From contig CANGCT010000015.1 of NCBI GenBank assembly GCA_947452415.1, positions 1-38,586 on the forward strand: a stretch of DNA of 38,586 nt, in the 5' to 3' direction. This document shows, piece by piece, positions 5,272 to 33,873 of this stretch. Position numbers and translations under genes: made by a program. The first letter of the stretch is position 1. Each line of letters starts with the position of its first letter. The notes below the pieces were generated by a model, which made no database searches, had not been told where the DNA came from, and worked only from the letters and a program-made list of their open reading frames with translations. The stretch comes from Flavobacteriaceae bacterium. GTDB taxonomy: Bacteria; Bacteroidota; Bacteroidia; Flavobacteriales; Flavobacteriaceae.

Positions 5272-8200
5272 ATGAAAATATTAAGAATAGTAAAGATCCT
5301 TTTTGCTATAGCTCCATTGTTAATATCTAACCCGATATTTTCAAATGTTTTTGAAAACAATAGCAATATCACTGAAAAAAAACATAAATTAAATCCGCTA
5401 ACTGTTGCTGCGATTTCATGTAATTTTAGCAATGCTAAAACCGGTGTCGAAATTTCAGAAACTGGATTTAATTCAAGTTCTTTAAATTTGATTGGAGGTA
5501 AAATGAATAGCCTAAACAGTAATTCAATAATTACTGGTGTTTTGGCAGCACCCATTATCACTTCTCAACCTCAAGCTACATCAAAGTGTGTAGGAGGTAG
5601 CGCTTCTTTTTCTGTAGTTGCTACAGATACTGGAACTCTAACCTATTTGTGGAAAAAAAATGGTGTTTCACTTAGTAATGGGGGAAATATAAGTATTGTA
5701 AGTGGTGCAGGAACTTCAACTATAACTATTTCTAATCTTATAAGTGTTGACGCTGCAAGCTATACTTGTGTTGTTACAGACAGCTCAGACCCAACTAACC
5801 CAACTACTTCCACTGCGGCGCAATTAACTATAAATGCATTACCGGTATTAATTAAAAGCAGTACTACCAATGTTTGTATTGGGCAATCACTAAATATAAG
5901 TGTAAATGGAGCTAGCTCTAATTCCTATTTATGGAGTACTGGAAATACATCAAATTCAATTTCGGTTAATCCAACTGTAAATACTAGCTATTATGTTACA
6001 GGAACCGATAGTAACGGGTGTTCGGTTACAGAAACCTTCGCAATAACAGTTCGTGCTCTACCTGTAATTACTATTACTGGAAGTACAACAGTTTGTAGCG
6101 GAACAAGCACAACATTAACAGCTAATGGAGCGTCTACCTACGATTGGGGAGGCTTAACAAGCAATGCTAGTGTTGTAGTTAGCCCAATATCTAATACGAC
6201 TTATACAGTTAATGGAACTGATAGTTTCGGATGTATTGGTTCTGCCTACCAACAAGTTGTAGTAAATGCATTTCCAACTGCTACGGTTAGTGCAACTTCT
6301 CCAATTTGCTCTGGAGCTACTGCAACTTTCCAAATTACTGGAACACCAAATTCAACTGTTGTATATAAAATAGGTTCTGGAACGAGTCTAACTGTTGTTT
6401 TAAATAATACTGGACAAACTTTAGTAAATGTTACAGGAGCTACTTCAAATCAAACTTTAAATTTAATATCTGTTTCTTTATTAGGATGTCAAATTACCAC
6501 TTTTTCAGCACCAACAGCTACAGTAATTATTAATTCAATTCCTCTAATACCAACTACCTCATCTTTAGCTTATTGCCTAAATGAAACAGCAAATCCATTA
6601 ATCGCAACGGGAAATAACTTAAAATGGTATTTATCTCAAACTGGGGGCGGTGCTGAAACTTCTGTTCCAACCCCAAGTACTTCTGGTACTGGAATTACTA
6701 CTTATTATGTTAGTCAAACCATAAATGGATGTGAAAGTTTAAGAACGCCACTTGCTGTTACTGTAAATGCTTTACCAACAGTAAACGCTGGAATCGACCA
6801 AACTATTTGTGCAGGCGGATCAGTTACATTAGCTGGAAGTGGAGCAAATAGTTATGCATGGAGTAATGGCGCTACAACTACTACTATTTCAGTAACTCCA
6901 TCTGCTACAACAACTTATACTGTTACAGGAACAGATGCTAATGGATGTTCAAATACGGATCAAGTGCTAGTAACAGTGAATCCAATTCCAACTGTTCCTA
7001 CAATAACTATAAGTCCGGTTATCTATTGTCAAAATCAAACACCAAGTTCCCTTATAGCTTCGGGCAATTTGCTAAAATGGTATACTAATTCAAGCGGAGG
7101 AACTGGAAGTACCACAGCACCAATTCCAAGTACCGCTTTAACAGGTACTACTTCTTATTTTGTTAGTCAAACCGTAAATGGTTGCGAAAGTGGAAGAACT
7201 AAAATAGATGTTTTAATAAATATATTACCTGTAATTTCCATTACTGGCACTAATACTATTTGTGCAAATAGCACTACAACACTTACTGCTAGTGGCGCAT
7301 CAACCTATTCATGGAATGCAGGTCTTGGATCAACAGCTGCTATTACTGTTAATCCAGCAACAACTACAACCTATACTGTAACTGGAACAGCTACTAATGG
7401 CTGTATTGGAACAGCTCCTTTTTCTGTTAACGTAAATTCACTTCCAACAATAAGCGGGGGTTCTAACCAAACTATTTGTGCAGGAAATACCATAACACTT
7501 TCTGGATCTGGTGGAGTTGCACCTTACACTTGGAGCGGTTCAATACAAAATGGTATAGCGTTTACTCCTGCCACTACAACTACTTATACCGTTACAGCAC
7601 AAGGGGCTAATGGTTGTACTAATACCGCATCGGTTTTGGTGACCGTAAATAGTATACCAACGGCACCCGTATTAAGTGTAGTTCCACCAAATTGTACTTC
7701 AAATACAGGAACTATTCAATTTTCTGGATTACCACCAACCTCTGTGGGAAACTGGACTATACTGCCAGGGTCTATTAATGGATCAGGGACAACCTATTCC
7801 CTAAATAGTCAACCTGCTGGAAATTATATTTTTACTGTAAGAGATGCTAATCAATGTACTTCTCCAAGTTCAAGTATTACCGTTACTGCGGCGCCAACAA
7901 TTCCAGGCGCACCTATTGCAGCAGCGGCCCAATCGTTTATGGCTGCTGCAAACCCAACGGTGGCTAATTTACAAATAACCGGCCCAGGAACACCAGTATG
8001 GTATACAAGTTCTACTGGAGGCTCCTCACTTTCAAGTGGAACATTATTATTAAGTGGGACCTATTATGCAGCACAAATTTTAAATGTGTGTGAAAGTACT
8101 GCAAGAACATTAGTTGCAGTAACTGTTAATGCAAATTCGGTTGGAGGTACAGTTACAGGAAGTTCTTCAGTTTGTTTTGGAAGCAATTCTACTACAATAA

Positions 8201-11200
8201 CTTTGTCAGGAAATACAGGAAATGTTGTTAAATGGCAGAGTGCTAGCGATAGTAATTTTTTAAATAATCTTACTGATATTGCCAATACAAACTCATCAAT
8301 TACGATTACTAACTTAAGTGCTCCCACCTATTATAGAGCAGTAATTCAAAGCGGTACATCTTCTTCATTTTCAACAGCTGCATTTATTGACATTATTCCT
8401 CAAAGCGTTGGAGGTTCTATAACTTCAGCAGTTTCTGCAGTATGTTTAGGTCAAAATAGTGGATTGTTAATCCTTTCCAATTATGTTGGAACCATCCTTA
8501 GATGGGAACAGTCTAACAATGGAACTATTTGGAATACAATTTCAAATACCTCTTCTACTTATACTTCTGGAGCTTTAACTCAAACTACTTATTTTAGAGC
8601 TGTAGTTCAAAATTTAGGTTGTTCAATTGTTACTTCTCCTAATTTTACAGTTACTATTAATAGTATACCAGCAATATCAGGAACTCTATCGTCTTGTCTA
8701 AATACTACTTCTTTACTGTCTGGAGGAACATCACTGCCAGCTTCAACTAATGCATGGGCATCTTCAAATCCTGGAATAGCATCCGTTTCTCCAAACGGAC
8801 TTGTAACAGCGACATCGCCTGGAACCACTGTAATTACTTACACTAATTCAAATTTATGTTCAACAACTACTAATTTTGTTGTTTATGCTTCGCCATCCTT
8901 ACTTGTTACTAATCCTGCTCCCGTATGTAGTCCAAACACAGTAAATCTTACTTCAACAAATGTAACATTGGGTTCAACACCAGGATTATTCTACACTTAT
9001 TTCACAAACCAATTAGCTACAGCTACTTTAACTAATTCAACAGCAGTTGCAGCTTCTGGAACCTATTTTATAAAAGGTACAGACCCTAACGGATGTTCTA
9101 CAACAACAAATCCGGTAACTGTTTTAATAAATTCATTACCAACTTATACCATTACAGGAAATAATACTATTTGCGCAGGAAACAACACTACACTTACATC
9201 TTCAAGTGCAAACAGTTATTCTTGGAATAGTGGACTTGGAACAACAAATTCTATTACTGTAACCCCATTATCAACTACCCAATATATAATGACTGGGACC
9301 GACAATAATGGATGTACTTCATCGGCAACTTATACCGTAACTGTTAAACCGCTTCCAAATATAAATGCAGGTGTTGACAGAAGTGTTTGTTTAGGTTCTT
9401 CCATAACTCTTTTTGGTTCTGGCGCAGGAACAAATGGCACTTATAATTGGAATACTATTACAGATAATATTCCTTTTTTACCTTCTTCAACCGCAACCTA
9501 CACTGTTACCGGAACAGACACCAATGGATGTTCTAACACTGACAGTGTTATTGTTACTGTAAATAGCATACCATCTGCTCCAATATTAAATGTTACACAA
9601 CCAGATTGTAGTTCAACAATAGCGTCAATTAAATTTTCTAGTTTACCAACGACAGGATGGACAATAAACCCGGGATCATACACTGGAAATTCGACAAACT
9701 ATACTTTAAATAGTCAACCAGCAGGAACTTATAACTTTACTATAAAAGACAGCAATTTATGTACTTCTGCAATTACTAGCACTACAATAATTACTGCTCC
9801 TATAACTCCTAGCGCACCAATAGTTGGAGCTACAACGCAACCAAGTTGCGCTAACCCAACTGGAAGTGTAATTTTAAGCGGATTACCAACTGGAAGTTGG
9901 ACTATTACAAAATTACCCGGTGGACAAACCTATACCGGAACAGGTAATGCCTATACAGTTACTAATCTAGTAACTGGAAATTATACTTTTTCTGTTTCTA
10001 ATGGATCTTGTAGTTCAGTCGCATCAGCAAATGTAGTTGTTGATTCTGTTCCAGGACAAAGCGCACCGGTTGTTGGATTATTAGTACAACCTACATGTAC
10101 TACAGCAACAGGAAGTGTAACTTTAAATGGCTTACCTTCAACAGGAAGCTGGACATTAACTCGAATTCCTGATGGAGTTACTTTAACCAGCACAGGATTA
10201 ACCAAAACTATTACCGGATTAGCTTCTGGAACTTATAATTATACCGTTTCAAATTCAAATGGTTGTACTTCTCTTAGTTCTAATTCTATTTTAATAGATG
10301 TACAACCCGCTTCTCCTGTAGCGCCAATTGTCAATGCACAAACTTTCTTAGTTTCTGAAAATGCAACTGTTTCAAACTTACTAATCGTAGGTGGAGGAAC
10401 AGCAACTTGGTATAGTAACTCAGTAATTTTAACCCCACTTGCAGGTTCTACATTATTAGCTACTGGAGTTTATTATGTAACTCAAACTGTTAATGGTTGT
10501 GAAAGTAGTTTAAGAACCCCTGTGAATGTTACGGTATTTCCTAATTCTGCAGGAGGTATAGTTAATGGAGGAGCAATAGTATGTTATGGAACTAACTCAA
10601 CAGTATTGACATTAACTGGTCAAACAGGAACTGTTATTAAATGGCAAAGTGCTAGTGATGTAAATTTCACATCTTCTTTGGTTGATATACCAAATACAAG
10701 TACTTCTTATACCGTTACAAATACAACTACTCCTTTATATTATAGATCGGTAGTTCAAAGCGGAACTGCTCCGATAGAATATTCAAATCCTGCATTTATT
10801 GATGTTGCATCACAAAGTTTAGGAGGGAATTTAAACCCTTCAAATACAGCTATTTGCGTTGGACAAAATGGAGGTTTATTAACTCTTACTGGATATATCG
10901 GAACCATTATACGTTGGGAACAATCTATAACTAATGGAACTAGTTGGGCTCCAATATCCAATACAACCGACAATTATACTGTTGGTTCTTTAACTACCAC
11001 AACACAATATAGAGTAGTAGTTCAAAATGGTGTTTGCCCTGCAATATTTTCACCTGTTGCCATTATTACTGTAAAAAGCACTCCTATAGTTACCGATATT
11101 CCAAATCAACAAGTTTGTTATGGTGGTACTAAAACTTTTGGAGATCCATTTATTGCTGGATACGATTATAACTGGACTTCTGATATTGGCTATTCTAGTA

Positions 11201-14200
11201 TTTTACCTCAAATTAGTATTACTTTTAATCAAGTAGTTACACAAACCTATACTTATACTATAACTAACCATTTAACGGGTTGTTCGGCTCAAGATCAATT
11301 TCAGGTAATTGTAAACCCATTACCAAATGCTACCGTAATTACTGATACTTCCATTTGTGCTGGAAATTCAATTGCTTTAGGGTCCAATTCTACTATAGGA
11401 TCAACCTATTCTTGGAGTAGTATACCAGCAGGATTTGCTTCAACTAGTTCCAATCCGTCGGTAAGTCCAGCAGTTACAACCACTTATATTTTAGAAGAAA
11501 CAGTTACTGCAACGGGATGTAAAAAAACCAACCAAGTAACTATTACAGTACAACCAATTCCGGTTATTACTATTGTGGGTGCTCCACAATTTCACATTTG
11601 TGAAACCACTCCGCAAGTACAATTAAACGCAACAGTAACAAATAGTACCACTACTGTATGGAGAACCTTAATAGGGTCTGGAAGTTTTAGTGACAATTCT
11701 ATACTAAACCCAATCTATTCACCTAGCTTAAATGACATTTTTGCAGGAAGCGTAACATTACAATTAACTGTTACAGGAATCAATCCTTGTACAACAACTT
11801 ATACTCAAAATGTTGTTATAATAATTGACAAAAAACCAATTGCTAATGCTGGATTAGATGTGATAACATGTGGAACAAATCCGATTCAAATTAATGCTAC
11901 AGGAACCCAAAATGCAACTAACTTAGTATGGAATATGTCTCCTGGAATTACGGGGACATTAAACCTAGGCAATCCGTACATGCCAATTTATACCCCAAGT
12001 GCAAATGATCAAAATTATGTAGGACCAATAGATTTCACTTTAACTGCATCTTCAAGTTCTACTTGCCCAAGTTCTACTGATACAGTTTCTGTTCTAATTA
12101 TACCTGCTCCAAAAGTTGATGCCGGGCCACCAACTGTTACCATCTGTGAGGGGTCTAACTATTTTGTGCCGTATAACCCATTGGCAGCAGAAAACATAGT
12201 AAACAGCTCCATACTTTGGACTAATGGTACTGGTGATGGAACTATAGTTGGAATTAACTCCCTTACTCCTACTTATATTCCAGGGCCAAATGATATATTA
12301 AATGGATCAGTTACTTTAACGCTAAGTGCTTCTGGAAGCAACCCTTGTGTTACTCCAGCTACCGATAGTATTATAATAAAAATTGTTAAAAAACCTATAG
12401 TAAATGCTGGTATAGACAGAGAAGTATGTGATGGACCAATTAGCATTAACGCTACAATTCAAAATGCTGGAACCATACTTTGGACTTCCAGTGGACATGG
12501 TTCGTTTGTGAATCCAACTGTTATAAGTCCAATTTATAATCCTGATGTTAGTGATTTAAATACAATTGTAACTTTTACAGTTACGGTAGAACCTATAAAT
12601 GGATGTGGTTCAAGCGTTCCGGATTTTGTTTTATATACCATTAACGCAAAACCGAGTATTGTTGTAGGAGGGAATGCTACAATTTGTGAAAGTAATCCAA
12701 CTTTTAATTTATTTGCAACAACCTCTAATACAACTCCATTAACATGGACATCCACTGGGTCTGGTTCGTTTGATAATATCCATAATGAAGATCCAATTTA
12801 TACTTTAAGTCCTGGGGATAAGGGTGCAGGTTCAGTTACATTTACATTAACCGGAGTGCCAAAAATTGGTTGTACTAGTATACCAGACACAATGGTTTTA
12901 ACCATACAAAAAAATCCAACTGCTGATGCTGGATTAGCTCAAGTAATTTGCCAAGGAGATAGCATTATACTTCCTGGCACCTCTACAAATGCAAGTGGTT
13001 ATAGTTGGACAAGAACTAGTGGCACTGGCACTTTTATTAATGATAATACACAAACACCTACTTACATTTCACAAACAAGCGAAACAGGTACTATTTATTT
13101 ATCATTTATAGCTAATGCAATAGCGCCATGTACCAATCCTGCAAATTCCAATACGTCAATTACAATTATTCCTAAAGCTACTGCATATGCTGGTCTAGAT
13201 CATACCATTTGCGAAGGTGAATCGTACCAAATATCTACAGCAACCTCAACATTTAATTCAGGAGTGCAATGGAGTTCTAATGGAGATGGAACGTTTACAG
13301 GAGCAAATACTCTCAATCCAACCTATATTCCAGGAACTAATGACAAAAATAGTGGCTCTGTAAAATTAACGTTAGTTGCTTTCAAAAACGCACCTTGTTT
13401 TGCTAATGCTGTAAGTGACATGACACTTTTCATAAAAAAAGTACCTGTTATTACCGTAATCAATCCAAATGTAAATTTATGTGTTGGTGCCCCATCTTAT
13501 ATAGTAACTGGAGTAGTTCCTACTAATTATGATACTTTGTCTTGGAGCACCTCAGGATCTGGTACTTTTTCTCCAGATAATTTGGCTTTAGCGCCAACCT
13601 ATTACCCATCGGCAAGTGATTATACTCTAGGAACAGTAACTTTAACTTTAACGGCAGCCAGAGATCCGTTAAATTGTAACTCTTCTACTTCCAACACTAT
13701 AACATTACATTTTATAAGCCAACCTATCGCTGATGCAGGTCCTGCAACAGCAACTATATGTGAAGGATCTAGCTATGTAACGAACGGAACCACTGCATCT
13801 GCTCATTTTTCTAATGTAACGTGGTCAACTACTGGAACTGGTACCTTTACCAATGCCACCACTTTGTTGGCTACCTATACCCCTTCTGCAGCCGATATAA
13901 ATTTAGGATTTGTTGATTTAACTTTAACCGCTAATCCGCTTACTCCTTGTGCTGCTCTGGCTACGGATGTAATTCGATTGAATTTACAAAAATTACCTGT
14001 TATTACATTAAAAGCAACGGATGCTATTTGTGTGACACAAAATTCTTATGGAATAGGTGGAACAACTGTTACAGATTTTGCTCCTAACTCTATTGTTTGG
14101 TCTACGAGTGGAACCGGAACGTTCTCTGCTTCTGGAGATACTTTGAACCCAATTTACAATCCATCTCCTGCAGATTTGTCTGCTGGTTCTGTAACCTTAA

Positions 14201-26200: not shown

Positions 26201-29200
26201 CCTATACTTGGACTAATAGTAATCCAAGTATTGGATTGCAAACAAATGGATCAGGACCAATTCCAACCTTTTCAGTAATTAATATTGGGACAATTCCATT
26301 AGTAGCAACTATAGAAGTAACGCCAACTTTTACTTACGCTGGTGTAACTTGCACAGGTGATCCAAAAACATTTACAATTACAATAAATCCTTCTGGTGAA
26401 GTGGATCAACCATCTCCTCAAGTTTTCTGTAGTGAAAGTATGGCTACAATAAACCTTACTACACCAACTACGGTTGGCGTAACTAGTTACTCTTGGACTA
26501 ATACTGCTCCAAGCATTGGATTACAAAGTGGTATAGGAAGTAATATTCCTACATTTATGGCATCTAACCCTGGAAGTTCTCCGGTAGTTGGAACTATTGT
26601 AGTAACCCCAACCTATACTAATGCAGGAGTAAGTTGTACAGGTAACACAAAAACATTTACTGTAACGGTTAATCCATCACCACAAGTAAACACAGTACCT
26701 TCGCAAGTAATTTGTAATGGAAGTTTAACCAACCTAGTAAATTTCACTACAAATAATACTGGAGGAGCTACTGGTGGAACTACAACCTATCATTGGTTAA
26801 ATAATAATCTTAATATTGGTATGGCAATGGAAGGAACTGGAAATATACTTCCTTTTATTGCATTAAATACTGGATCAAATGTACAAGTGGCAACATTAAC
26901 GGTTACTCCTATCTATACCAATGCTGGTGTAAGTTGTACCGGAAACCCTATTACTTTTACTATTACGGTAAATCCTAAAGCACAAGTAATTCTGCCTACT
27001 TCACAGGTATTCTGTGATGGAAGTCCAGCTGTAGTTAACCTTAGTTCAATAACAACTGGGGCAAATACTACATATGAATGGTTAAATTCTGATCCAAGCA
27101 TTGGATTAATAGCACATGGATTTGGTAGCAACATTCCTCCGTTTGTAGCGACCAATCCAGGGCCAGTTCCTGTTGTGGCGACAATAACAGTTATTCCAAC
27201 CTTTACTAATGCAGGAATTAGTTGTGTGGGTACTTCTATTGTATTTACAATTACTGTGAATCCTAAGGCGCAAGTAAATGCATTTACATCATTAGTGAAA
27301 TGTAATCAAGATATTATAGCTTCAATTCCATTTAGCACAACAACTGGAGGTGGTATCACTACTTATGAGTGGACCAATTCCATGCCAAGTATCGGATTAC
27401 CTGCCCATGGAACAACAAACTATATTCCTGCCTTTTCGGCAACAAATACAGGAAGCATTCCATTAGTAGCAACAATTACAGTTACTCCTACCTACTCTAA
27501 TGCTGGAGTAAATTGTACTACTGGCGCTCCAGAAGTATTTACAATTACTGTTAATCCATCGGGGCAAGCAAATCAAATAGCGCCTCAAGCTTTTTGTAAT
27601 GGATTAAATACCAATACTATTAATTTAACTACAAATAATACTCAAGGAATTACCAACTATACTTGGACTAATTCAAATCCTAATATTGGATTAATAGGGC
27701 CAGGAATCGACTTTATTCAATCCTTTTTAGCAACAAATTCAGGAACAAATCCTTCTGTAGGATCCATAAATGTTATTCCAATATTTACCAATGCTGGATT
27801 AAGCTGTGTTGGAAACCCAATGACATTTACTATTTCCATTAATCCAACTGGACAAGTAGATCCAATAGGCTCATTAGTAAAATGTAGTGGAGATTCAGTA
27901 GCTATTAATCTTATAACTATTAATAGCGGAGGTACAACTACCTACTCTTGGACCAATACCGATCCTAGTATTGGATTAAATAACGGTTCTGGAACCAACC
28001 TCCCACTATTTACAGCGACCAATGTTGGACCGCTTCCTGTTGTTGCAACAGTCGTGGTAACTCCAACCTATACTTATTCGGGAGTAAGTTGTACAGGGCC
28101 ATCTAAAACATTTACTATTACAGTAAATCCATCTGCGCAAGTAAACCAACCTAATTCACAAGTAATTTGTGATAGCGAATCTAGTACTGCGGTTATTTTT
28201 AATACTGCAAATGTTGGAGGAACTACTAACTATACTTGGACAAATAGCATTCCGAGTAGTTACTTAGCGGCAAGTGGTATAGGAAATACTATTCCTCCAT
28301 TTATTGCAAGCAATTCTGGAACTGCTCCTATTGTACATACTATAACGGTAACTCCAAGTTATAATAATAATGGAATTACTTGTAGTGGAGCGCCTAAAAC
28401 TTTTACAATTACAGTAAATCCAATACCACAAGTAAATCCAGTGTCCTCACAAGTTAAGTGCAACGGAAGCTCAACTACATTAGTAAACTTTACTACTATT
28501 AATTCTGGAGGGGTTACCACTTATGACTGGACCAATTCCATACCAAGTATAGGATTACTAGCTTCTGGATCTGGACCAATTTCTGCATTTACTGCAATAA
28601 ATACGGGGACTGTTCCATTAGTGGCAACAATTACGGTAACTCCAAAATTCACTAATGGAGATACTACTTGTGCCGGTTTGCCAATGATATTTACTATTAC
28701 TGTAAATCCATCTCCACAAGTTAATCTGCCTACCCAACAAGTATTTTGTAACGGAGAAGTTGTAAACCTTAATCTTACTTCAACAACTTCAAATGCTGGA
28801 ACTACTTATATCTGGACGAATACCGATCCAAGTATCGGATTAATTACAAATGGATCTGGAAATAACCTTCCTACATTTACTGCTGTTAATATTGGATCTG
28901 TTCCTGTAGTGGCAACGATATCTGTAACTCCTATATTTACTAATTCTGGTGTTACCTGCACTGGTTCTCCATTAACGTTTACGATTACAGTAAATCCAAG
29001 CCCAAAAGCTACTATTAGTGGGCCAATTAATTTTGTGGCTTGCCAAAATGGAACTCAACCGGTAATTACATTTACTGGTACTAACGGAATTTCACCATAC
29101 ACTTTTAATTATCAAACAGTTGGGCCAAATGGAACTTTCTTATCAAGTGCAACTTCAATAGGAAATAGTGCTTCAATATCAATTCCAACTTCAGTATTTG

Positions 29201-32200
29201 GAAACTATACTATTATGCTTTTAAGCGTTCAAGACTCTAGTTCAAATTCATGTAGTTCTTTGGTAAATCCAGCAATGAATACCGCCTATGTTCAGGTTCA
29301 AGAAACTGGAACAGTAGTTCCGTTAAATGTGTCTTTAGTTTCACAAACTATTTGTCAAAATGTTTCTATTGCTCCTATCGTATTTACAATTGGTGGATCA
29401 TCAAATAACGCGTTTGTAACTAATTTACCTTCTGGGCTGACTCAAAGTTACAGTTCAAATATTTTAACCATTTCTGGAATACCAACTACTCCAGGAGTTT
29501 ATAATTATATAGTTCATACTACCGGATCAACAAATGGATGTAATTCTATTTACACAGCAGGAACCATTACTGTTAATTCAAATGGAAACACTTCGGCAAT
29601 GACGCCAATAAATCCTACAGTATGTGCAAATAATCCTTTAGTACCAATTATGTTTAATCTTGGAGGTGGCGCAACTGGAGGAATCGTTACTTTCTTACCA
29701 CATCAACCTTCAGGAATTACATGGTCAATAAGTGGCACTATATTAACCATTGAAGGAACATCAGCAGATGCAGGAATTTATACTTATACTGTTCAATCGT
29801 TTGGTATATGCGATCAAACGCCTATAACTGGAACTATAACCATAAAGAATGCTGCAACTATTTCTTTAGTTTCTGGAAATCCATCACCTACAGTTTGTAT
29901 TGGAAGTTCTTTTGCAACACCTATTCAATATAGTATAAATCCTGCAACGAATACAATGCTACTTTCAGCTTCTTCAACTTTACCTACAGGTGTAACTTTT
30001 AATCCTGCAATAGGAATAATTACTGGTACTCCAACTGAAAGTGGTACGTTCCCATATACTATAATTTCGGATAATGGTTGCGGAAATGCCCTTTCGGGAA
30101 TTATAACTGTAAATCCTTTACAATCTATTTCCTATTTGTCGGGTAATATCAATCAAGTTGCATGTCAAAACTCCCCTATTGACCCTATTAATTTCTTAGT
30201 TTCAGCAGGAGTAACTTCCATTACTGTTTCGCCGGCATTGCCTGCAGGAATAAATATGGTTTTAGTAGGTGGAATAGTTACAATTTCTGGTACACCAACC
30301 ACTGCAACAAGCATAGCTTTAAACTATACCATTACAACTCAAGGTGGTTGTGGTGCGCCTTCACCTTATAGCTTTACGCTAGATGTTCATCCTGCAGCAA
30401 CAATTACACTTACATCTGGATCGGGTGCAATTAACCAATCTGTTTGTCAAAGTTCTGCAATTGTTCCAATTGTATTTACAATTGGTGGTGGTGCAACGGG
30501 AATAATAATTAATCCTCCTTTACCAACAGGATTAACCTTGACTTCTCTTGCAGGCACCTATTCTATACAAGGAAATCCTCAAGTGAACGGCGTATATAAT
30601 TTTAATATTACCACAACAGGATGTCTTAATACATTATCAGTAACAATTTCTAATGTAAACACTTCTGTTGGTATTATTTTAAATTCTGCAGCTGGAACCG
30701 ACAATCAAACTCTTTGTCAAACTGGATTTGTTTCGCCAATTCAACCTATAATTTACAATGTAGTAGGTGCTACGAGTATCATTACAAATGGATTACCTGC
30801 GGGTGTAACGGCAGTATTTAATGGTGGACAGGTAACCATTTCAGGTACTCCAACTGTATCGGGTATTTTTAACTATACCGTTACCACACTTCCGTGTTCT
30901 ATTGTGAAAGCGGGTGTAATTAAAATTTCCACTCCAATATTTATAACCAATGAATTGGTTACAAATGTATCTTGTAGCAGTAATATTGATGGAGCAATTG
31001 CAGTAACCATAGTTGGTGGCGCACCATATTACGACCCAATAAATGGACAACCTCATTATGCAATTCACTGGTCTGGACCAAACGGTTTCCAACAAAATCT
31101 ATCTACTATTACTGGACTTCAGGCTGGTCAATATGTGCTTACAGGTTCGGATGCAATTGGATGCCCTATTCCAACAACGACCTACAATGTATTGCCTGCG
31201 CAACCGATTAATATATCCACAATATCTTCAACAAACGTTAGTTGTAATGGAGTTTTAGGAAGCGCTAACTTTAATATTACTGGCGGAAGTGGAATATATA
31301 CACAGTTTACCTTACAATATTTAGATCCAAGTTCTCAAAATTTAGTGCCAATAATTCCTGCAAATAACAATTATTATAACATTTCAAATTTGCAAGCAGG
31401 CATCTATTATTTAACTGTTAAAGACAGTCATAACTGTACTACAACGCCTCCATACTTATTCACTATTTATGATTATAGTTCCCTATCAATGGAATCAATT
31501 ACTATGGATAGTAGTTTGTGCCAAGATACACCAGGAAAAATAAGAATTAAAGTAAATAGTTTAGATACAAATTTAACGTTCTATTACAATAATATTTTAG
31601 TTCCATTTATAGACTTAGGAAATAACATCTATGAATTATCTATTAATAATCCTACGGTACCAAACGGGGTTGTAAAAGTTAAAAATGGACAAAATTGTTG
31701 GTTAAGTAAATTGGTTTCTACCGCAATTATCACCCCCAACTTTACATTTACTTCAAGTAATTTCCAAAATAATGGTTACTACTCTGTAAATGGTAGTGTA
31801 CAGTTTACAAACTTGGTGAACATGAGTAGTATACCTGCAGAATACGATCACATTGTATGGGATTTTGGAGATAGCACTCCATTTAAAGTATTCTATAAAC
31901 CAGCAAATTTATTGCCAAATTCTAATGGAGAAAACTTCCAAACAGTATTCCATACTTATACCACAGATGGAATTTATCAGATTACTTTAACTGTTTATAA
32001 CCAATTTGGTTGTTCAAGAATGGTAACTAAAACAATTATTATTGGAAGTGGGGCGACCATGATGTTGCCAACTATATTTACTCCTAATAATGATGGAATA
32101 AATGATTTATTCCGTCCTTCCTTAGTTGGTCTTAAAGACGTTTCCATGAATATTTATGATGAATGGGGTAATTTAGTTTATGAATTTTCTTCTGATGTTT

Positions 32201-32346
32201 CTCTACTAACTTCAGATTGGGGTTGGAATGGAATTGAAAAAGGAAAAAATGAGCCAATTAATAATGATTATAGATATTATATTATGGCCACTACTATTAA
32301 TAATGTTAAAATTGAGAAAGAAGGTAGATTCTTACTTGTAAAATAA
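5272..32346 (+). CDS. Giant (9,024-aa) repeat-rich surface adhesin with T9SS type B sorting domain, SprB-like
   Basis: A single uninterrupted 27-kb frame. Residues 1-24 form a signal peptide (MKILRIVKILFAIAPLLISN...FS). An Ig-like domain follows at about 97-192. Residues ~193-2093 hold mixed Ig/PKD-like repeats with a YTVTGTDxNGC motif, plus a BIG2-like domain near 1130-1205. About 30 repeats of ~92 residues (AGxxxTICEG...) span ~2094-4855. PKD-like domains occupy ~4855-5214. Then come 28 repeats of ~96 residues (QVNxPxxQVFCNG...) at ~5219-7909, six putative-Ig repeats at ~8017-8553, two SprB-type repeats at ~8554-8737 and a PKD domain at ~8834-8925. It ends in a gliding-motility-associated C-terminal domain (~8930-9024, LPTIFTPNNDGINDLF). 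Known type B proteins are exported by T9SS with a PorP/SprF partner, and such a gene follows 7 bp later. The likely role is surface adhesion, possibly gliding. It is longer than SprB of F. johnsoniae (about 6,500 aa). Confidence 0.93.
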   Translation: MKILRIVKILFAIAPLLISNPIFSNVFENNSNITEKKHKLNPLTVAAISCNFSNAKTGVEISETGFNSSSLNLIGGKMNSLNSNSIITGVLAAPIITSQPQATSKCVGGSASFSVVATDTGTLTYLWKKNGVSLSNGGNISIVSGAGTSTITISNLISVDAASYTCVVTDSSDPTNPTTSTAAQLTINALPVLIKSSTTNVCIGQSLNISVNGASSNSYLWSTGNTSNSISVNPTVNTSYYVTGTDSNGCSVTETFAITVRALPVITITGSTTVCSGTSTTLTANGASTYDWGGLTSNASVVVSPISNTTYTVNGTDSFGCIGSAYQQVVVNAFPTATVSATSPICSGATATFQITGTPNSTVVYKIGSGTSLTVVLNNTGQTLVNVTGATSNQTLNLISVSLLGCQITTFSAPTATVIINSIPLIPTTSSLAYCLNETANPLIATGNNLKWYLSQTGGGAETSVPTPSTSGTGITTYYVSQTINGCESLRTPLAVTVNALPTVNAGIDQTICAGGSVTLAGSGANSYAWSNGATTTTISVTPSATTTYTVTGTDANGCSNTDQVLVTVNPIPTVPTITISPVIYCQNQTPSSLIASGNLLKWYTNSSGGTGSTTAPIPSTALTGTTSYFVSQTVNGCESGRTKIDVLINILPVISITGTNTICANSTTTLTASGASTYSWNAGLGSTAAITVNPATTTTYTVTGTATNGCIGTAPFSVNVNSLPTISGGSNQTICAGNTITLSGSGGVAPYTWSGSIQNGIAFTPATTTTYTVTAQGANGCTNTASVLVTVNSIPTAPVLSVVPPNCTSNTGTIQFSGLPPTSVGNWTILPGSINGSGTTYSLNSQPAGNYIFTVRDANQCTSPSSSITVTAAPTIPGAPIAAAAQSFMAAANPTVANLQITGPGTPVWYTSSTGGSSLSSGTLLLSGTYYAAQILNVCESTARTLVAVTVNANSVGGTVTGSSSVCFGSNSTTITLSGNTGNVVKWQSASDSNFLNNLTDIANTNSSITITNLSAPTYYRAVIQSGTSSSFSTAAFIDIIPQSVGGSITSAVSAVCLGQNSGLLILSNYVGTILRWEQSNNGTIWNTISNTSSTYTSGALTQTTYFRAVVQNLGCSIVTSPNFTVTINSIPAISGTLSSCLNTTSLLSGGTSLPASTNAWASSNPGIASVSPNGLVTATSPGTTVITYTNSNLCSTTTNFVVYASPSLLVTNPAPVCSPNTVNLTSTNVTLGSTPGLFYTYFTNQLATATLTNSTAVAASGTYFIKGTDPNGCSTTTNPVTVLINSLPTYTITGNNTICAGNNTTLTSSSANSYSWNSGLGTTNSITVTPLSTTQYIMTGTDNNGCTSSATYTVTVKPLPNINAGVDRSVCLGSSITLFGSGAGTNGTYNWNTITDNIPFLPSSTATYTVTGTDTNGCSNTDSVIVTVNSIPSAPILNVTQPDCSSTIASIKFSSLPTTGWTINPGSYTGNSTNYTLNSQPAGTYNFTIKDSNLCTSAITSTTIITAPITPSAPIVGATTQPSCANPTGSVILSGLPTGSWTITKLPGGQTYTGTGNAYTVTNLVTGNYTFSVSNGSCSSVASANVVVDSVPGQSAPVVGLLVQPTCTTATGSVTLNGLPSTGSWTLTRIPDGVTLTSTGLTKTITGLASGTYNYTVSNSNGCTSLSSNSILIDVQPASPVAPIVNAQTFLVSENATVSNLLIVGGGTATWYSNSVILTPLAGSTLLATGVYYVTQTVNGCESSLRTPVNVTVFPNSAGGIVNGGAIVCYGTNSTVLTLTGQTGTVIKWQSASDVNFTSSLVDIPNTSTSYTVTNTTTPLYYRSVVQSGTAPIEYSNPAFIDVASQSLGGNLNPSNTAICVGQNGGLLTLTGYIGTIIRWEQSITNGTSWAPISNTTDNYTVGSLTTTTQYRVVVQNGVCPAIFSPVAIITVKSTPIVTDIPNQQVCYGGTKTFGDPFIAGYDYNWTSDIGYSSILPQISITFNQVVTQTYTYTITNHLTGCSAQDQFQVIVNPLPNATVITDTSICAGNSIALGSNSTIGSTYSWSSIPAGFASTSSNPSVSPAVTTTYILEETVTATGCKKTNQVTITVQPIPVITIVGAPQFHICETTPQVQLNATVTNSTTTVWRTLIGSGSFSDNSILNPIYSPSLNDIFAGSVTLQLTVTGINPCTTTYTQNVVIIIDKKPIANAGLDVITCGTNPIQINATGTQNATNLVWNMSPGITGTLNLGNPYMPIYTPSANDQNYVGPIDFTLTASSSSTCPSSTDTVSVLIIPAPKVDAGPPTVTICEGSNYFVPYNPLAAENIVNSSILWTNGTGDGTIVGINSLTPTYIPGPNDILNGSVTLTLSASGSNPCVTPATDSIIIKIVKKPIVNAGIDREVCDGPISINATIQNAGTILWTSSGHGSFVNPTVISPIYNPDVSDLNTIVTFTVTVEPINGCGSSVPDFVLYTINAKPSIVVGGNATICESNPTFNLFATTSNTTPLTWTSTGSGSFDNIHNEDPIYTLSPGDKGAGSVTFTLTGVPKIGCTSIPDTMVLTIQKNPTADAGLAQVICQGDSIILPGTSTNASGYSWTRTSGTGTFINDNTQTPTYISQTSETGTIYLSFIANAIAPCTNPANSNTSITIIPKATAYAGLDHTICEGESYQISTATSTFNSGVQWSSNGDGTFTGANTLNPTYIPGTNDKNSGSVKLTLVAFKNAPCFANAVSDMTLFIKKVPVITVINPNVNLCVGAPSYIVTGVVPTNYDTLSWSTSGSGTFSPDNLALAPTYYPSASDYTLGTVTLTLTAARDPLNCNSSTSNTITLHFISQPIADAGPATATICEGSSYVTNGTTASAHFSNVTWSTTGTGTFTNATTLLATYTPSAADINLGFVDLTLTANPLTPCAALATDVIRLNLQKLPVITLKATDAICVTQNSYGIGGTTVTDFAPNSIVWSTSGTGTFSASGDTLNPIYNPSPADLSAGSVTLKLTVNSITPCTIPVFKTLILSFQKLPVASAGPNLIKCALPFQITDSTVDLSTINNLVWSTSGTGTFDFNNIIDPNYTPSAADILSINPIRLTLTANPIAPCAVPLVTYTDVTLIKEPVITLVTPQPTICADETNVLVNGTTVQFASSYNWTSTSGTTISNSNTLTPLVTPSLIDINNGYIDITITAIPNAPCSTNDTKTVRIPVQKKPIVASGASQTLCEGSIITTSDALSSNVTNLHWDNNGGDGTFTTSNLNTVTEYTPGPLEIASGQVLLTLIGDAVAPCSETVSSTTVYTIVRNPIVTLNPTEVTICETDTYTIPANYLTIVNPTSILSHQWTTTTMSSLTGASSWTPTYTPTAADIAATFVNLTLTVTPIAPCTTPIVRTIKINIAKKATIDATQTNYIFCENTPKQLNAVFANHDATTILWNIVSGAGTLSASNTATPTFTPDASSTTVVIEVSVSSNLPCTEIVTKQFTLNVIKKPVVSVANTSDVICNSQTSYPLNGNTVANATASTTYLWTTTGTGTFANNTALVTTYNFSAADLLLNSVTLRLLATSDNVCALTDYKEITINITKAPTVVTAPTDVVCEGAVFTAFATATNSASVIWTTVGSSNGTFTDANLPTASYTQGSNDTNSFTIKVTANSNTPCAAVSATKVVTVQKKPILDAGLENRFNCSSEAYSITGVTGQNLGAILWASNSGAPGTFSDRTALNPTYTPSASELITGTVTLTVTAQALTPCLVPVSDFIILHLTPNQVVDAGTYASICEGDNISLIGSATNASSVYWTSSSVNGTFISVNSLTTNYIPSNSDLISGSVSLTLHAISDSNCPEVTDTTFITILKKPTANAGAPVSICEGTSYTLTAGEATAANYTTVTWTATGPGALDATTINTLTPKYIPAVGQTGTVTLTLTATGYTACGINAVSEKTITIVPKPIVTVIPTKTICEGSTFTISNTDASAINYASLLWSSSNGLGGTFTPNNAAATIYTPATGQTGLVTLSLTAASANGVCPSSVGTIQLDIIAKPIVEAGTNGTICQTGTYTVTGASVQNSNLYSWNVSGPATIQAGTETTLSPVIVPNAGASGTITVTLTAVGNGICPISVSDYLTIQVNPAPIVSAGTSGYICEGTGSFQLNGTGSNATTYSWTTTGGGIIQQTGNTLAPLYVPSASDYNTANGVNVITINLNGTSTNGCSSATDSIQLTLYAKPKINAGLDIIACEDNTSALLNNATISNYNSGYTVSWSSTGNGTWDYSNSNGGINPVYIFGSSDTSSVILTMSVYPNANCLQVAITDSMTITIHQNPSIITSTNAITMCGETFTMQDLVTVNNSNSILWTDTTGGTLGTLTNATTETPIFTPSANEIANGFALLTLTALPPSGCTVPATSTITVNLQPKATVDAGSNITSCQGEVVTINNNASVQNYSTFAWTENGTGTIEPATINSLNPIYHPGTNEVGLVTFTLQATNLAPCTGSVSQTMTLTISAQPTVNAGPDATICQNSTYTLSGATATNNNSVGWSSSPDPSGIIVSGYTPGTFNSATITNPIYTPSQDDINLGYVYLTIKALNPACNSVVTDIIKITINSGPSVSAGSNKTICEGSTYTLSGTSQANTTPTIVWTASDNSNGNPTLGHVFGTFSNNAILNPVYTPSVDDINIGHVYLTLTGNASSNCPADKSTILLTIVKKPSVSTTDVQMCMDTPQVTLIGSAYNYQNLNWSIYSGPGTIITNGPNPLQPTFISGISGSPTGTTTIVRLFVTPLDGCPPSTSVYSDLTITIQPLPVVEAGQDGWLCYTSGTPIGVFTINGTSITNNGINITNNAGVQNWSSSNAFGMFTPGNPYTYQSNGNSCNTETLTLTVHGTGACANHDPITDSVKLNISCAKPNLGPIFPATTQICEGQTITYNVQNTFSTITNNGVQNYIWSIPTGATIVSGQGTNSIQVLFGSNSGDITVTATNGCGIATATLPINVTSLPSGVATISGPRIVCAGSTGNIYTATTLPNATSYIWTLPNGSSVTTSTNSITISYGVTEVSGNLTVIGSNYCGSGTASAAYPITINPKPSLTSSLTPPSICSGSTFAYTPTSSVSGSTFVWSITPPSGIIVTGPRSGNGSINETLTNTTDTVISVVYQITSTTPAPQRCTNTETITVDVNPAPSLTSNPNPDPICSGTTFNYTPTSASGTISWVRNMVLGITESGSNGTGIINEILTNTTNAPITVTYLLTLPATANGCTISAPISLTVIVNPSGQVDTPISPVVCNGTNENIVLTTLNTGGPTNYSWTNSAQSIGLLNGTGNNLPSFVASNLGNAPVTGNISVIPTFTYAGLSCSGAPMAFTITVNPVAKVNQPATQVFCNGTAANINLTTLNTGGLMSYVWTTTNSSIGLNGGTGNFITSFTALNSGTAPVNATIVLTPYFTNDAVTCSGPSKTFTVTVNPSAQVNQPVPFVYCNGNSATINFTTVNTGGTTDYSWTNTDSSIGLNSTGIGTNQSFIATNAGTSPIVASIVVTPSFSNGGMTCSGLTKSYTITVNPSAQVNQPDSQVLCSGSTTAAIAFSTNNTLGTTSYFWTNNNPSIGLIATSGNSDNIPSFTAINTGTATAVATIIVTPTYTYNGVTCTGTTKTFTITVNPLGQINVTAPQIFCNGTAANINLTTQNTGGITNYTWTTTNSSIGLTGGNGINLPSFIATNIGLVPETANINVIPTYTYSGVSCTGTQGTFTITVNPSAQVNLVPSQVVCNGSATTAIALTTNNTLGTTTYSWTNSDPSIGLAASGGTSNIPSFIASNSGNTPKVATITVTPTYTNAGASCIQNQITFTITVNPKAKVNPLATQVFCNGSNATINLISPSIGGTTYTWTNSDQSIGLIDGAGTSIPSFNAFNSSSIPKVATVTVIPTFTNVGISCTGDPMTFTIVVNPAAQVNPTSPQVFCNGAQANINLTTTNAGGATTYAWTNTNSSIGLPASGSSNNLPSFTAANLGTFPVVVSVVVTPAFTNAGLTCTSAPVTFTVTVHPSVVVDPVAPQVLCNGAISTLVNFTTPISGGTTTYAWTNSDPSIGLEGAGAGNNIPVFIATNSGNAPKTATISVTPTFTNAGVSCVGAPMTFTIIVNPSAQVNPISQQVFCNGNPAIINLSSINTGGINSYNWTNSNPSIGLAPSAASVIPTFTATNLGSDPISSTITVTPIFTFAGVTCTGAPTTFPITVNPSPQINPIASQVLCKGASSNIINFTTTNFGGTTTYSWTNSNPNIGLFPITGTGDYILPFTATNTVNTPEVSTITVTPTFTNAGVSCIGNPISFTITVNPLPQVNTPNPQVFCNGSTAFVNFTTINTAGATSYTWTNSNTTINLAATGSGNILPFTAINTGTVPQVATIIVTPTFSNGGLNCEGAPMTFEIIVNPTGQVNPTVPQAFCNGTPATINLTTLNSGGDTTYYWTNSEPSIGLPASGTSNNLASFTATNTGTLPVTANILVTPSFSHAGVTCTATPPMAFTITVNPSAQVDLPVNQVYCNGSTTPLINFTTQNTGGVTTYNWTINNSNIGLSTTSGSGTIPTFNAINTGTSPILATVTVTPYFTNNSVTCSGTPKTFTITINPSGDMNTPANQVFCNGSTANINLTTPITGGITTYAWTNTEPSIGLAATGNGILPQFVAHNTTTTPVVAIIVVTPIFTNDGVSCLGTPKTFTVTINPSGEVAQPASQILCNGSASTAVLFSTNNNPIGTTTYSWTNDNQNIGLLTNGNNNMQSFVATNAGNTPQVANITVTPSYSYDGVICIGDSKTFTIRVNPSPQVDQMSPKVFCNGSATNMISFTTATSGGITTYSWHNSNTNIGLQADGTGFIPSFIPINISTIPISATITVTPTYTYQGVSCIGNPMTFTITVNPLAQVNPITPQVKCDGDLVTINLSTLTSVGATSYSWTNSAPSIGLGAYGNNFPAFTAINSGTQPVVATIIVTPTYTNEGMTCAGTTTTFTITVNPKAQVAQPDNQVFCNGTSTSLINFSTENTLGSTTYTWTNSNPSIGLQTNGSGPIPTFSVINIGTIPLVATIEVTPTFTYAGVTCTGDPKTFTITINPSGEVDQPSPQVFCSESMATINLTTPTTVGVTSYSWTNTAPSIGLQSGIGSNIPTFMASNPGSSPVVGTIVVTPTYTNAGVSCTGNTKTFTVTVNPSPQVNTVPSQVICNGSLTNLVNFTTNNTGGATGGTTTYHWLNNNLNIGMAMEGTGNILPFIALNTGSNVQVATLTVTPIYTNAGVSCTGNPITFTITVNPKAQVILPTSQVFCDGSPAVVNLSSITTGANTTYEWLNSDPSIGLIAHGFGSNIPPFVATNPGPVPVVATITVIPTFTNAGISCVGTSIVFTITVNPKAQVNAFTSLVKCNQDIIASIPFSTTTGGGITTYEWTNSMPSIGLPAHGTTNYIPAFSATNTGSIPLVATITVTPTYSNAGVNCTTGAPEVFTITVNPSGQANQIAPQAFCNGLNTNTINLTTNNTQGITNYTWTNSNPNIGLIGPGIDFIQSFLATNSGTNPSVGSINVIPIFTNAGLSCVGNPMTFTISINPTGQVDPIGSLVKCSGDSVAINLITINSGGTTTYSWTNTDPSIGLNNGSGTNLPLFTATNVGPLPVVATVVVTPTYTYSGVSCTGPSKTFTITVNPSAQVNQPNSQVICDSESSTAVIFNTANVGGTTNYTWTNSIPSSYLAASGIGNTIPPFIASNSGTAPIVHTITVTPSYNNNGITCSGAPKTFTITVNPIPQVNPVSSQVKCNGSSTTLVNFTTINSGGVTTYDWTNSIPSIGLLASGSGPISAFTAINTGTVPLVATITVTPKFTNGDTTCAGLPMIFTITVNPSPQVNLPTQQVFCNGEVVNLNLTSTTSNAGTTYIWTNTDPSIGLITNGSGNNLPTFTAVNIGSVPVVATISVTPIFTNSGVTCTGSPLTFTITVNPSPKATISGPINFVACQNGTQPVITFTGTNGISPYTFNYQTVGPNGTFLSSATSIGNSASISIPTSVFGNYTIMLLSVQDSSSNSCSSLVNPAMNTAYVQVQETGTVVPLNVSLVSQTICQNVSIAPIVFTIGGSSNNAFVTNLPSGLTQSYSSNILTISGIPTTPGVYNYIVHTTGSTNGCNSIYTAGTITVNSNGNTSAMTPINPTVCANNPLVPIMFNLGGGATGGIVTFLPHQPSGITWSISGTILTIEGTSADAGIYTYTVQSFGICDQTPITGTITIKNAATISLVSGNPSPTVCIGSSFATPIQYSINPATNTMLLSASSTLPTGVTFNPAIGIITGTPTESGTFPYTIISDNGCGNALSGIITVNPLQSISYLSGNINQVACQNSPIDPINFLVSAGVTSITVSPALPAGINMVLVGGIVTISGTPTTATSIALNYTITTQGGCGAPSPYSFTLDVHPAATITLTSGSGAINQSVCQSSAIVPIVFTIGGGATGIIINPPLPTGLTLTSLAGTYSIQGNPQVNGVYNFNITTTGCLNTLSVTISNVNTSVGIILNSAAGTDNQTLCQTGFVSPIQPIIYNVVGATSIITNGLPAGVTAVFNGGQVTISGTPTVSGIFNYTVTTLPCSIVKAGVIKISTPIFITNELVTNVSCSSNIDGAIAVTIVGGAPYYDPINGQPHYAIHWSGPNGFQQNLSTITGLQAGQYVLTGSDAIGCPIPTTTYNVLPAQPINISTISSTNVSCNGVLGSANFNITGGSGIYTQFTLQYLDPSSQNLVPIIPANNNYYNISNLQAGIYYLTVKDSHNCTTTPPYLFTIYDYSSLSMESITMDSSLCQDTPGKIRIKVNSLDTNLTFYYNNILVPFIDLGNNIYELSINNPTVPNGVVKVKNGQNCWLSKLVSTAIITPNFTFTSSNFQNNGYYSVNGSVQFTNLVNMSSIPAEYDHIVWDFGDSTPFKVFYKPANLLPNSNGENFQTVFHTYTTDGIYQITLTVYNQFGCSRMVTKTIIIGSGATMMLPTIFTPNNDGINDLFRPSLVGLKDVSMNIYDEWGNLVYEFSSDVSLLTSDWGWNGIEKGKNEPINNDYRYYIMATTINNVKIEKEGRFLLVK
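5848..11550 (+). repeat. Mixed Ig/PKD-like repeat region of the giant adhesin
   Basis: The region encodes successive modules of about 70-90 residues. Most start with a xxTICAGxS-type strand and end YTVTGTDxNGC...VTVN. Interspersed are K/VWY modules (WYTNSSGGTGS..., VSQTxNGCES), WTIxPG modules and WQSASD modules. A BIG2-like module with ASSNPGIASVSPNGLVTATSPG lies near 8,660-8,890. Two Cys per module are usual, suggesting a disulfide in each. Confidence 0.85.
11551..19836 (+). repeat. About 30 tandem ~92-residue repeats (AGxxxTICEG type)
   Basis: I counted about 30 units by the N-terminal Cys motif (TICEG, VICQG, AICVT and similar). Each usually carries LxWTSxGxGTF, then PxYxPSxxDIxxGxVxLTLTAxxxxPC. 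The average unit is about 276 bp. Units are diverged in DNA, so the array is old compared with the block that follows further on. Confidence 0.85.
20926..28998 (+). repeat. 28 tandem ~96-residue repeats (QVNxPxxQVFCNG type)
   Basis: Twenty-eight units were counted by the motif QVNxPxxQVFCNG. Each is followed by SYxWTNxxPSIGL, then a FxAxNxGxxPVxATIxVTPxFTNAGVxC segment and KTFTITVNP. The mean length is 288 bp. Units carry almost no charged residues and are rich in T, S, N and G. Two conserved Cys lie near the ends of each unit. Some units share long exact DNA strings, for example the CNGTAANINLTT segment of units 2 and 5. Confidence 0.92.
29320..30930 (+). repeat. Six putative-Ig (He_PIG-like) repeats
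   Basis: Six modules of roughly 80-90 residues share a start of the form NQxxCQNxxIxPIxFxIGG, a central LPxGLT and a C-terminal TISGTPTxxGxYNYTV strand. This is the usual look of putative-Ig or cadherin-like surface domains. One related copy is found in the convergent adhesin at about 37,766-38,040. Confidence 0.75.
30931..31480 (+). repeat. Two SprB-type repeats of the giant adhesin
   Basis: Two modules contain VSCSSNIDGAIAVTIVGG and VSCNGVLGSANFNITGG, then GLQAGQYVLTGSDAIGC and NLQAGIYYLTVKDSHNC. This is the pattern of the SprB repeat family found in gliding adhesins. The spacing between the Cys and the GxYxLTxxDxxxC end is preserved. Confidence 0.8.
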
Positions 32347-32353
32347 AAATAAT

Positions 32354-33379
32354 ATGAAAAATAATAACAGCTTTTTACTTTTGATATTATTAATTTCGAC
32401 TACCGTTTTTAGTCAAGATTATATCTATAAAAGTCAAAACATAGTAATGGGGTCTATGAATCCAAGTTTTTATGGATTTGGAGACTCCTCAAAGGCAGGT
32501 TTAATTTATAGCACCGAAGGTTTTAATCAAAACAGTAAATTGAACAATAAGTTTGCTTACGTAAATCATTATTTTGAAAACTATGATTTTTCCTTAGCAC
32601 TTGATGTCAATACGCTTCAAATTAATACTTTGGGATATTCAATTACATCTTCCAATTTACATTACATCTATAAAACCAAATTAAATGAACAATGGGTTTT
32701 CAATCCATCAGTTTCAGTAGGATTTGGAAACACTAAGTTAGATTATAATGCATTAATTTTTGAAGATCAGTTAAATGCTTTAACAGGTACAATTGCTGGA
32801 GTTTCTAATGATCCTATTAAAATCAATAATAAAGTTAATTTTCTTGATGTTGGAGCTGGTGTAAGTTTTTACAATACCGGAGATGTGTTTAACAATGGTT
32901 CTAATATATTAATTGGTGCAAATGTGAAACACATTAACAGACCAGAGACCTCTTTTAATAGCAATGCATCCAACATTAAAGACTTGTTTATTTCATTACA
33001 AACAGGAATTCAATTTGACATAAATAAATACGACCAAGGATTTTTGCCTTATTATTCCTACTTATTTTTATATAATACGTTTTCCAAACAAGGCTCTAAA
33101 TCAAGAATTGATTTATACCAAGAAGCTATTTTGGGTAACGTAGGTTTTGGATTAAATCAACATTTTAATAACTATAATGGCTTCTCGGTATCTCAATTTG
33201 GAACTTCTTTAAATATTTATATAGAGGAAATACAAATTGGCGCTAATTATTCTTTTGAAATTGGAAAGAAAATTGGTGGTGCTCCCTACAATACATTTGA
33301 AATGTATATAATATTTGATTTTAATCCATTCAAGAAAAATAGAAGAGGTGATAATAGTAGATTTTTTGATATGCAATAA
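32354..33379 (+). CDS. PorP/SprF-family type IX secretion outer-membrane protein
   Basis: This 341-residue protein has a signal peptide (MKNNNSFLLLILLISTTVFSQ) and a mature start of the form QDYIYKSQNIVMGSMNPSFYG, typical of PorP/SprF proteins. The rest reads as alternating amphipathic strands fitting an outer-membrane beta-barrel, including GAGVSFYNTGDVFNNGSNILIGANVKHINRPETSF. Members of this family are encoded right after type B sorting-domain adhesins. In F. johnsoniae SprF is needed to put SprB on the surface. Here the ATG is 7 bp after the stop of the giant gene, so co-expression is near certain. It probably acts as the dedicated partner for anchoring that adhesin. The exact orthologue (sprF) is not claimed. 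Confidence 0.92.
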   Translation: MKNNNSFLLLILLISTTVFSQDYIYKSQNIVMGSMNPSFYGFGDSSKAGLIYSTEGFNQNSKLNNKFAYVNHYFENYDFSLALDVNTLQINTLGYSITSSNLHYIYKTKLNEQWVFNPSVSVGFGNTKLDYNALIFEDQLNALTGTIAGVSNDPIKINNKVNFLDVGAGVSFYNTGDVFNNGSNILIGANVKHINRPETSFNSNASNIKDLFISLQTGIQFDINKYDQGFLPYYSYLFLYNTFSKQGSKSRIDLYQEAILGNVGFGLNQHFNNYNGFSVSQFGTSLNIYIEEIQIGANYSFEIGKKIGGAPYNTFEMYIIFDFNPFKKNRRGDNSRFFDMQ

Positions 33380-33837: not shown

Positions 33838-33873
33838 AAGAAAAGCATAATGTGAGCCAACAAATCCCAATAA

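Follow-up and report, generated by a model that had tools for sequence, protein, structure and literature searches.

Organization of the locus

The stretch of DNA analysed here, referred to below as the window, comprises all 38,586 nucleotides (nt) of contig CANGCT010000015.1 (contig C15 of its genome) from Flavobacteriaceae bacterium, assembly GCA_947452415.1, a metagenome-assembled genome (MAG) of 2.89 Mb in 183 contigs that is 92% complete and 6% contaminated. Most of the window is occupied by a gene for a giant protein of 9,024 amino acids (aa) with a type B sorting domain of the type IX secretion system (T9SS), and the gene which begins 7 nt after its stop codon encodes a protein of the PorP/SprF family, here called the carrier. 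Their features are listed in Table 1. A preliminary description of this DNA had claimed one intact 27-kb frame, and this claim is borne out: from its ATG at position 5272 to position 32346 of the + strand there are 9,024 codons with a sole, terminal stop, there is no N among the letters of the window, and both the frame and the order of its units are kept in another species of the same genus (genome G063). The orthologue in this species is 8,968 aa long, lies in one frame and is accompanied by a carrier gene; the two giants are 77% identical over 8,949 aligned positions and share the same order of domains, and the two carriers are 89% identical.

Table 1. Positions of the giant gene, the carrier gene and their features in the window
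Feature	Position	Strand	Basis
Giant type B T9SS protein, 9,024 aa	5272..32346	+	N-free single open frame; 8,968-aa orthologue in G063
Likely signal peptide, aa 1-25	5272..5346	+	By eye: Lys, hydrophobic stretch next
N-terminal mixed immunoglobulin (Ig) region, ~aa 94-2098	5551..11565	+	I-set, Ig_3, Ig_7; Big_2 below cut-off; GhpA matches
91-aa unit array, aa 2109-4755, ~29-30 units	11596..19536	+	Own profile; collinear with G063
PKD_6 / PKD_5 domains, ~aa 4866-5209	19867..20898	+	Pfam
96-aa unit array, 28 units, aa 5216-7903	20917..28980	+	Own profile, alignment, AlphaFold2 on two units
Six He_PIG-like units, aa 8028-8552	29353..30927	+	Pfam, 5 stretches; own profile, 6
Two SprB-like repeats, ~aa 8560-8732	30949..31467	+	PF13573, 23.1 bits, below cut-off of 28
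PKD domain, ~aa 8835-8916	31774..32019	+	PF18911/PF00801
Type B sorting domain, aa 8932-9022	32065..32337	+	TIGR04131 and CHU_C
PorP/SprF-family carrier, 341 aa, Cys-free	32354..33379	+	TIGR03519, barrel model, 197 homologues at E up to 1e-20
Carrier tail, residues 323-341, FNPFKKNRRGDNSRFFDMQ	33320..33376	+	Cys-free homologues, conservation rank, low pLDDT

The assignment of the giant to the type B substrates of the T9SS also stands, as its sorting domain scores 35.2 bits with TIGR04131 (cut-off 35; 43 bits in the genome search) and its CHU_C match clears the cut-off for that family, and its predicted export as a substrate of this type is well founded on what is known of the family. At least five repeat families and a PKD domain had been described, and Ig_7, 91-aa, PKD_6/PKD_5, 96-aa, He_PIG-like and SprB-like units together with one PKD domain were found, the domain total being ~95-98 in a rough count by eye. 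Of these, Ig_7 is seen in eight stretches by Pfam and in four by our own profile. In the region of the 91-aa array no Pfam family is matched at E 0.01, and our profile for this family also detects a few weak units outside it. Mean pairwise identity within the 96-aa array is 53%, and in the alignment every unit holds two invariant Cys and one invariant Trp; classic Ig domains likewise hold a Cys pair and a Trp. Most of the predicted Ig-like domains would hold a Cys pair that likely forms a disulfide, and the composition of the whole protein includes 194 Cys as compared with 168 Lys plus Arg. SprB is 6,497 aa long and much of it is covered by SprB repeats, whereas the giant, larger as had been stated, holds only the two sub-threshold repeats near its C-terminus that had been reported.

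Structure prediction, a check proposed in the preliminary description, was run for the 96-aa family. Two adjoining units, with the 26 other pairs as alignment, were modelled by AlphaFold2 at a predicted local distance difference test (pLDDT) score of 96.7, and in Foldseek this model is matched by domains of the Ig, cadherin and bacterial adhesin types, with two fragments of the grappling hook protein GhpA among them. The 96-aa units are thus predicted with high confidence to be Ig-like domains, and from this prediction for two adjoining units the earlier suggestion of a long surface filament is graded as plausible. A single Ig domain is ~4 nm long, and at this value the giant would measure about 0.4 micrometre. 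Scaling from SprB, for which PMC12635249 gives 200 nm, leads to about 280 nm.

The carrier and its C-terminal tail

An adjoining PorP/SprF-family partner had likewise been proposed, and the frame which follows the giant fits this description. It matches TIGR03519 over its whole length with an E value of 6e-20, at 71.8 bits as against a cut-off of 90.55, and gives no match in Pfam. It is modelled as a barrel, at a low-confidence pLDDT of 63, in which residues 325-341 are disordered (pLDDT under 50). The fold matches of this model include OmpG, FadL and chain F of T9SS translocon structures, and among the 50 matches listed the top TM-score (0.58) is for this chain F, which we take to be PorV. 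When the carrier sequence was compared with solved structures, the matches were weak ones to designed SAKe proteins alone, and a second carrier of the host genome, encoded on contig C52, had no match.

The carrier contains no Cys, and its C-terminus reads NSRFFDMQ rather than PRFF or PRYF. Among its homologues (the best 120 of 197 with E up to 1e-20), 119 lack Cys within their last 35 residues, the exception having an irregular end. The tail, FDFNPFKKNRRGDNSRFFDM, is one of the most conserved parts of the protein: for residues 323-340 the mean majority fraction is 0.953 compared to 0.818 for residues 21-312, which ranks fourth among 304 windows along the protein. As this tail is predicted to be disordered and yet is highly conserved, it most likely binds something.

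Distribution of the carrier clade

A scan of species genomes identified 63 loci, of which 59 were taken as flavobacterial. The other four are from Rufibacter and are kept apart from the 59, as their carriers show 23-27% identity, have one tail Cys each and are preceded by no long upstream frame. The hosts of the 59 loci include F. ammonificans, Polaribacter, Lutibacter citreus, a Formosa MAG and Ca. Arcticimaribacter, in addition to many marine single-cell genomes and MAGs; the locus is also present in L180, L182 and L186, whose titles name Rhizobium sp., Chitinophaga pinensis and uncultured Rhodobacteraceae, respectively, and which are probably mislabelled or mixed MAGs. At all 59 loci the frame directly upstream of the carrier matches the sorting domain of the giant (E up to 1e-5), the adhesin lengths in genomes L299-L307, L309 and L310 resting on 10-kb flanks, and all 57 of the tails which are fully readable are Cys-free (the other two hold unread letters). 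No PorE-like gene was found downstream of the carrier at any of the 59 loci, 56 of which have at least 700 nt to inspect, and none follows the carrier in the window, in G063, in G085 or in G026, where less than 700 nt of contig is left.

In a tree constructed without the last 20 residues of the carriers, the giant-type carriers group with the marine ones in a single branch of 22 rows, with a support of 100 in the Shimodaira-Hasegawa-like approximate likelihood ratio test (SH-aLRT). This branch, which includes one odd Lutibacter row, was followed in place of the tree label, as the labelling rule had set the marine carriers akin to the giant's under 'other'; the tree is a quick build, for which the program warned of several long branches. 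The tail of the marine branch, RRNRRGQYNRLQTDNYF, is kindred to that of the window and has RL where others have RF.

Of the 12 named genomes with a giant-type carrier, two also showed carriers with twin Cys in the tail, and none was seen in the complete chromosome of Ca. Arcticimaribacter; most of the other genomes are drafts. This scarcity fits a role apart from gliding. SprF-like carriers (as judged by eye) that lack CxC are also present in genomes with a giant-type carrier (L253, L257, L285, L287 and L290), where gliding may have been lost.

Tail classes and linkage to PorE

The relationship between carrier tails and PorE was surveyed in 95 carrier genes from 16 genomes, viz. 91 of 94 rows (two contig-edge fragments and one weak match were dropped) and four genes from the genome of the window. 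Tails ending in (P/S)R(F/Y)(F/Y) are the most numerous (57/95), and in 55 of these 57 a PorE-like gene lies directly downstream. No such gene follows any of the 24 carriers with CxC or CxxC tails, the four with giant-type tails or the four which lie inside frames of 770-1,579 aa, and it is present in one of the six with other tails. For the association of tail class with PorE linkage the Fisher p is 9e-23, for genes that are related and so not independent. Similarly, in the 12 named genomes, where 5 of 70 rows were left unread, 53 further loci yielded 54 carrier frames, and PorE follows 14 of the 15 with R(F/I/Y)F tails and none of the remaining 39. The C-terminal (P/S/T)R(F/I/Y)F is possibly a docking tail for PorE. 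As judged from the sequences, this PRFF-type signature adds to the operon rule of PMC12618676, and the carrier of the giant is outside both kinds. In a text search of the literature, judged by the titles and opening lines of the abstracts listed, the PRFF/PRYF tail was not found as a published motif, although it may still be in print. Some matches to PorP/SprF lie within open frames of 688-1,579 aa (G031:C9:834263, G006:C3:737578, G053:C2:177364, G041:C1:1075752 and L288), which are possibly carriers fused to another domain.

Number and order of units among the giants

The search for other giants scored 529 candidates, with its reach limited to proteins of at least ~4,960 aa, and its rows P0001-P0058 range from 5,092 to 7,467 aa, all shorter than the giant of the window. 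Those from P0001 to P0055 (Flavobacterium, Polaribacter, Lutibacter and others), annotated as 'gliding motility-associated' or 'PKD-like domain-containing', are of the same family, with 48-81% identity over the C-terminal 625 aa and the 91-aa array in common. The number of 96-aa units was determined in 59 giants, viz. the window, G063 and 57 of P0001-P0058 (P0056 was left out). There are no such units in 33 giants, 14 units in 21, 28 units in three, and seven and three units in one each; among the 57 P rows by themselves the counts are 0 in 33, 14 in 21, and 28, 7 and 3 in one each. As these rows are akin and come from a search for long proteins, the pattern holds for the giant subfamily alone.

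Unit order is also conserved. Between the window and G063, all 28 of the 96-aa units are reciprocal best matches at the same position, with a mean identity of 77%, and the 91-aa arrays are collinear, with 29 reciprocal best matches (the threshold used admits 32 units of the window and 29 of G063). For P0035, all 28 units match best in order with those of the window, 25 of them reciprocally. When two 14-unit giants from different lineages were compared, the order of best matches was blurred (5-8 of 14 reciprocal). The possibility that a block of 14 units had recently doubled to give the 28 was considered and rejected, as units at lag 14 (mean identity 0.536) are no more alike than those at other lags. 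The fixed number and order of domains between species suggests selection on the length of the tether itself.

Flanking regions

Upstream of the giant, positions 643-4318 encode an S24 peptidase together with a DinB-like polymerase, and also a pair made up of an indigoidine-synthase-like protein and PfkB. Three of these four neighbours (indigoidine-synthase-like, S24 peptidase and DinB-like) also lie beside the G063 orthologue at 87-92% identity, and the PfkB gene was not found in the G063 stretch examined. A minisatellite of 21/84 bp (33412-33855) separates the carrier from the gene that follows; its open frames are rich in Thr/Ser/Ala/Pro heptads on the + strand and in Cys/Trp on the - strand and gave no family matches, and it is likely not a gene. 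Beyond it, on the - strand (33927-38586), a type A T9SS protein is encoded, of which 1,552 aa are present; the contig breaks off within its 198-bp tandem repeats, which look SprB-like by eye.

Interpretation of the giant and its mount

Two mounts for adhesins of this kind can be taken from two papers. Loss of the CxC in the tail of SprF abolishes gliding and nearly all continuous movement of SprB, but not export, and a disulfide links SprF to Cys343 of GldK (PMC12635249), whereas a PorE gene after the carrier marks a static type B system (PMC12618676). The giant locus resembles SprB-SprF of F. johnsoniae in having a type B sorting domain, a very long repetitive protein and a PorP/SprF-family gene directly downstream. 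However, its carrier lacks the tail CxC, and a separate carrier with a tail ending in CNCPAVN (CxC) is present in the host, on contig C52, beside a cut type B domain. With GldK and GldJ also encoded there, the host has the track genes, but the carrier of the giant is without the known hook. With Fjoh_3952-Fjoh_3951-Fjoh_3950, a PorE-linked system predicted to be immobile (PMC12618676), it shares a type B protein with its own carrier, but there is no downstream PorE-like gene and the tail does not end in PRFF/PRYF. The absence of the cysteines thus speaks against sustained movement, and the absence of PorE against the static mount already known. On balance we lean towards the view that the giant is a fixed surface tether, not propelled, on a PorP/SprF-family carrier of a third mount type. 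The giant would be exported by Sec and then by the T9SS, and, by analogy with SprB-SprF, its sorting domain would be loaded on the barrel that the carrier forms in the outer membrane. It would form an outstretched chain of ~95 Ig-like domains, some 0.3-0.4 micrometre in length, with the N-terminal Ig region likely being the outer, binding end. The carrier tail would dock on a periplasmic partner, though neither on GldK via a disulfide nor on a PorE from an adjacent gene, and the job of the tether would be attachment to particles, algae or other cells. The immobility of the giant, its anchor partner and its ligand are all inferred from the sequences.

A number of observations weigh against a fixed mount of this kind. 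SprF lacking these Cys is still capable of short directed runs (PMC12635249), and no PorE gene accompanies the type B proteins that do move in F. johnsoniae (PMC12618676), because of which the absence of PorE would, by itself, point to movement. Further, the nearest sister clade on the tree consists of five CxxC carriers (SH-aLRT 94), which also lack PorE. GldJ is above the cut-off in 14 of the 15 genomes tested; it does not discriminate between them and was dropped as a marker of lost gliding. In addition, not all upstream frames are giant: that in the complete F. ammonificans genome is 2,728 aa, and at 8 of the 59 loci closed frames of 277-3,194 aa are found. Several of these points favour the alternative that the giant is an SprB-like leg for gliding, the tail of its carrier gripping the track without a disulfide or riding it at times. 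GldJ and GldK are present in the host, the latter with a Cys at 343 (counted from the second ATG, not by alignment), and the conserved tail could be a track-binding peptide. However, the near-complete loss of sustained movement in Cys-less SprF, and the retention of the carrier clade in genomes that showed no twin-Cys carrier, make this alternative unlikely. The gliding role put forward in the preliminary description is therefore not supported, in view of the Cys-free tail, the other carrier in the genome, of the CxC type, and the distribution of the clade, and adhesion or cell-cell contact, which it had also offered, appears from the sequences to be the better of its options.

A fixed tether of the known type would result if the SRF(F/Y) in the tail docked on a PorE-like protein encoded elsewhere, as PRFF tails may do. 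The linkage of 55 of 57 (P/S)R(F/Y)(F/Y)-ended carriers to PorE and the similar SRFF inside the tail of the giant's carrier are in accordance with this, and contigs C65 and C19 of the host genome each encode a PorE-like protein. However, each of these two genes follows a carrier of its own, the tail of the giant's carrier continues past SRFF with DMQ, the marine branch has RL and not RF, and in the MAG G160 both of the carriers read lack a PorE neighbour; docking of this kind is thus quite improbable. It is very unlikely that the giant is a grappling-hook fibre for seizing other cells, similar to GhpA of Aureispira sp. CCB-QB1, which like it is a giant, Ig-rich surface protein exported by the T9SS and whose hook is a heptamer. 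The N-terminal half matches GhpA (5,898 aa) with E 1e-73 in 11 stretches, GhpA fragments are among the fold matches noted above, and no match to GhpA was obtained with another type B protein that this genome encodes (1,844 aa, in a cut frame). However, the score is built on repeated Ig domains with a strong composition bias, and the C-terminal half has no match at E 0.01. Lastly, in a MAG of 183 contigs the frame could be suspected of being an artefact of assembly or of belonging to a decaying gene that yields no product, and closed upstream frames as short as 277 and 694 aa do occur at some related loci. This explanation has hardly any probability left: the frame runs for its whole length without a stop, and because G063 has an intact, single-frame orthologue (8,968 aa) with its carrier, and 28 of 28 of the 96-aa units match in order, it should not be interpreted as a mis-assembly.

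Returning to a fixed tether as the favoured reading, we tentatively propose, as an idea that falls somewhat short of an even chance, a third mount for T9SS adhesins, in which a Cys-free tail of the RRGxNSRF(F/Y)DM type would engage an undescribed periplasmic partner, neither the GldK track via a disulfide nor a PorE of its own, and would hold, among others, giant Ig-like tethers. With 0, 14 or 28 units of the 96-aa array in almost every giant found, a number kept between species, these tethers may serve as molecular rulers for the attachment of planktonic bacteria of lakes and seas. What makes a T9SS adhesin a mover or a static one is a question raised by two papers of November 2025 (PMC12635249 and PMC12618676), and as the carrier clade described here fits neither of the mounts published in them, its tail provides a test of the rule that twin Cys means moving and PorE means static. 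The clade occurs in Flavobacterium, Polaribacter, Lutibacter, Ca. Arcticimaribacter and single-cell genomes from the sea, and this spread marks it as a candidate means by which these bacteria may hold on to algae and particles.

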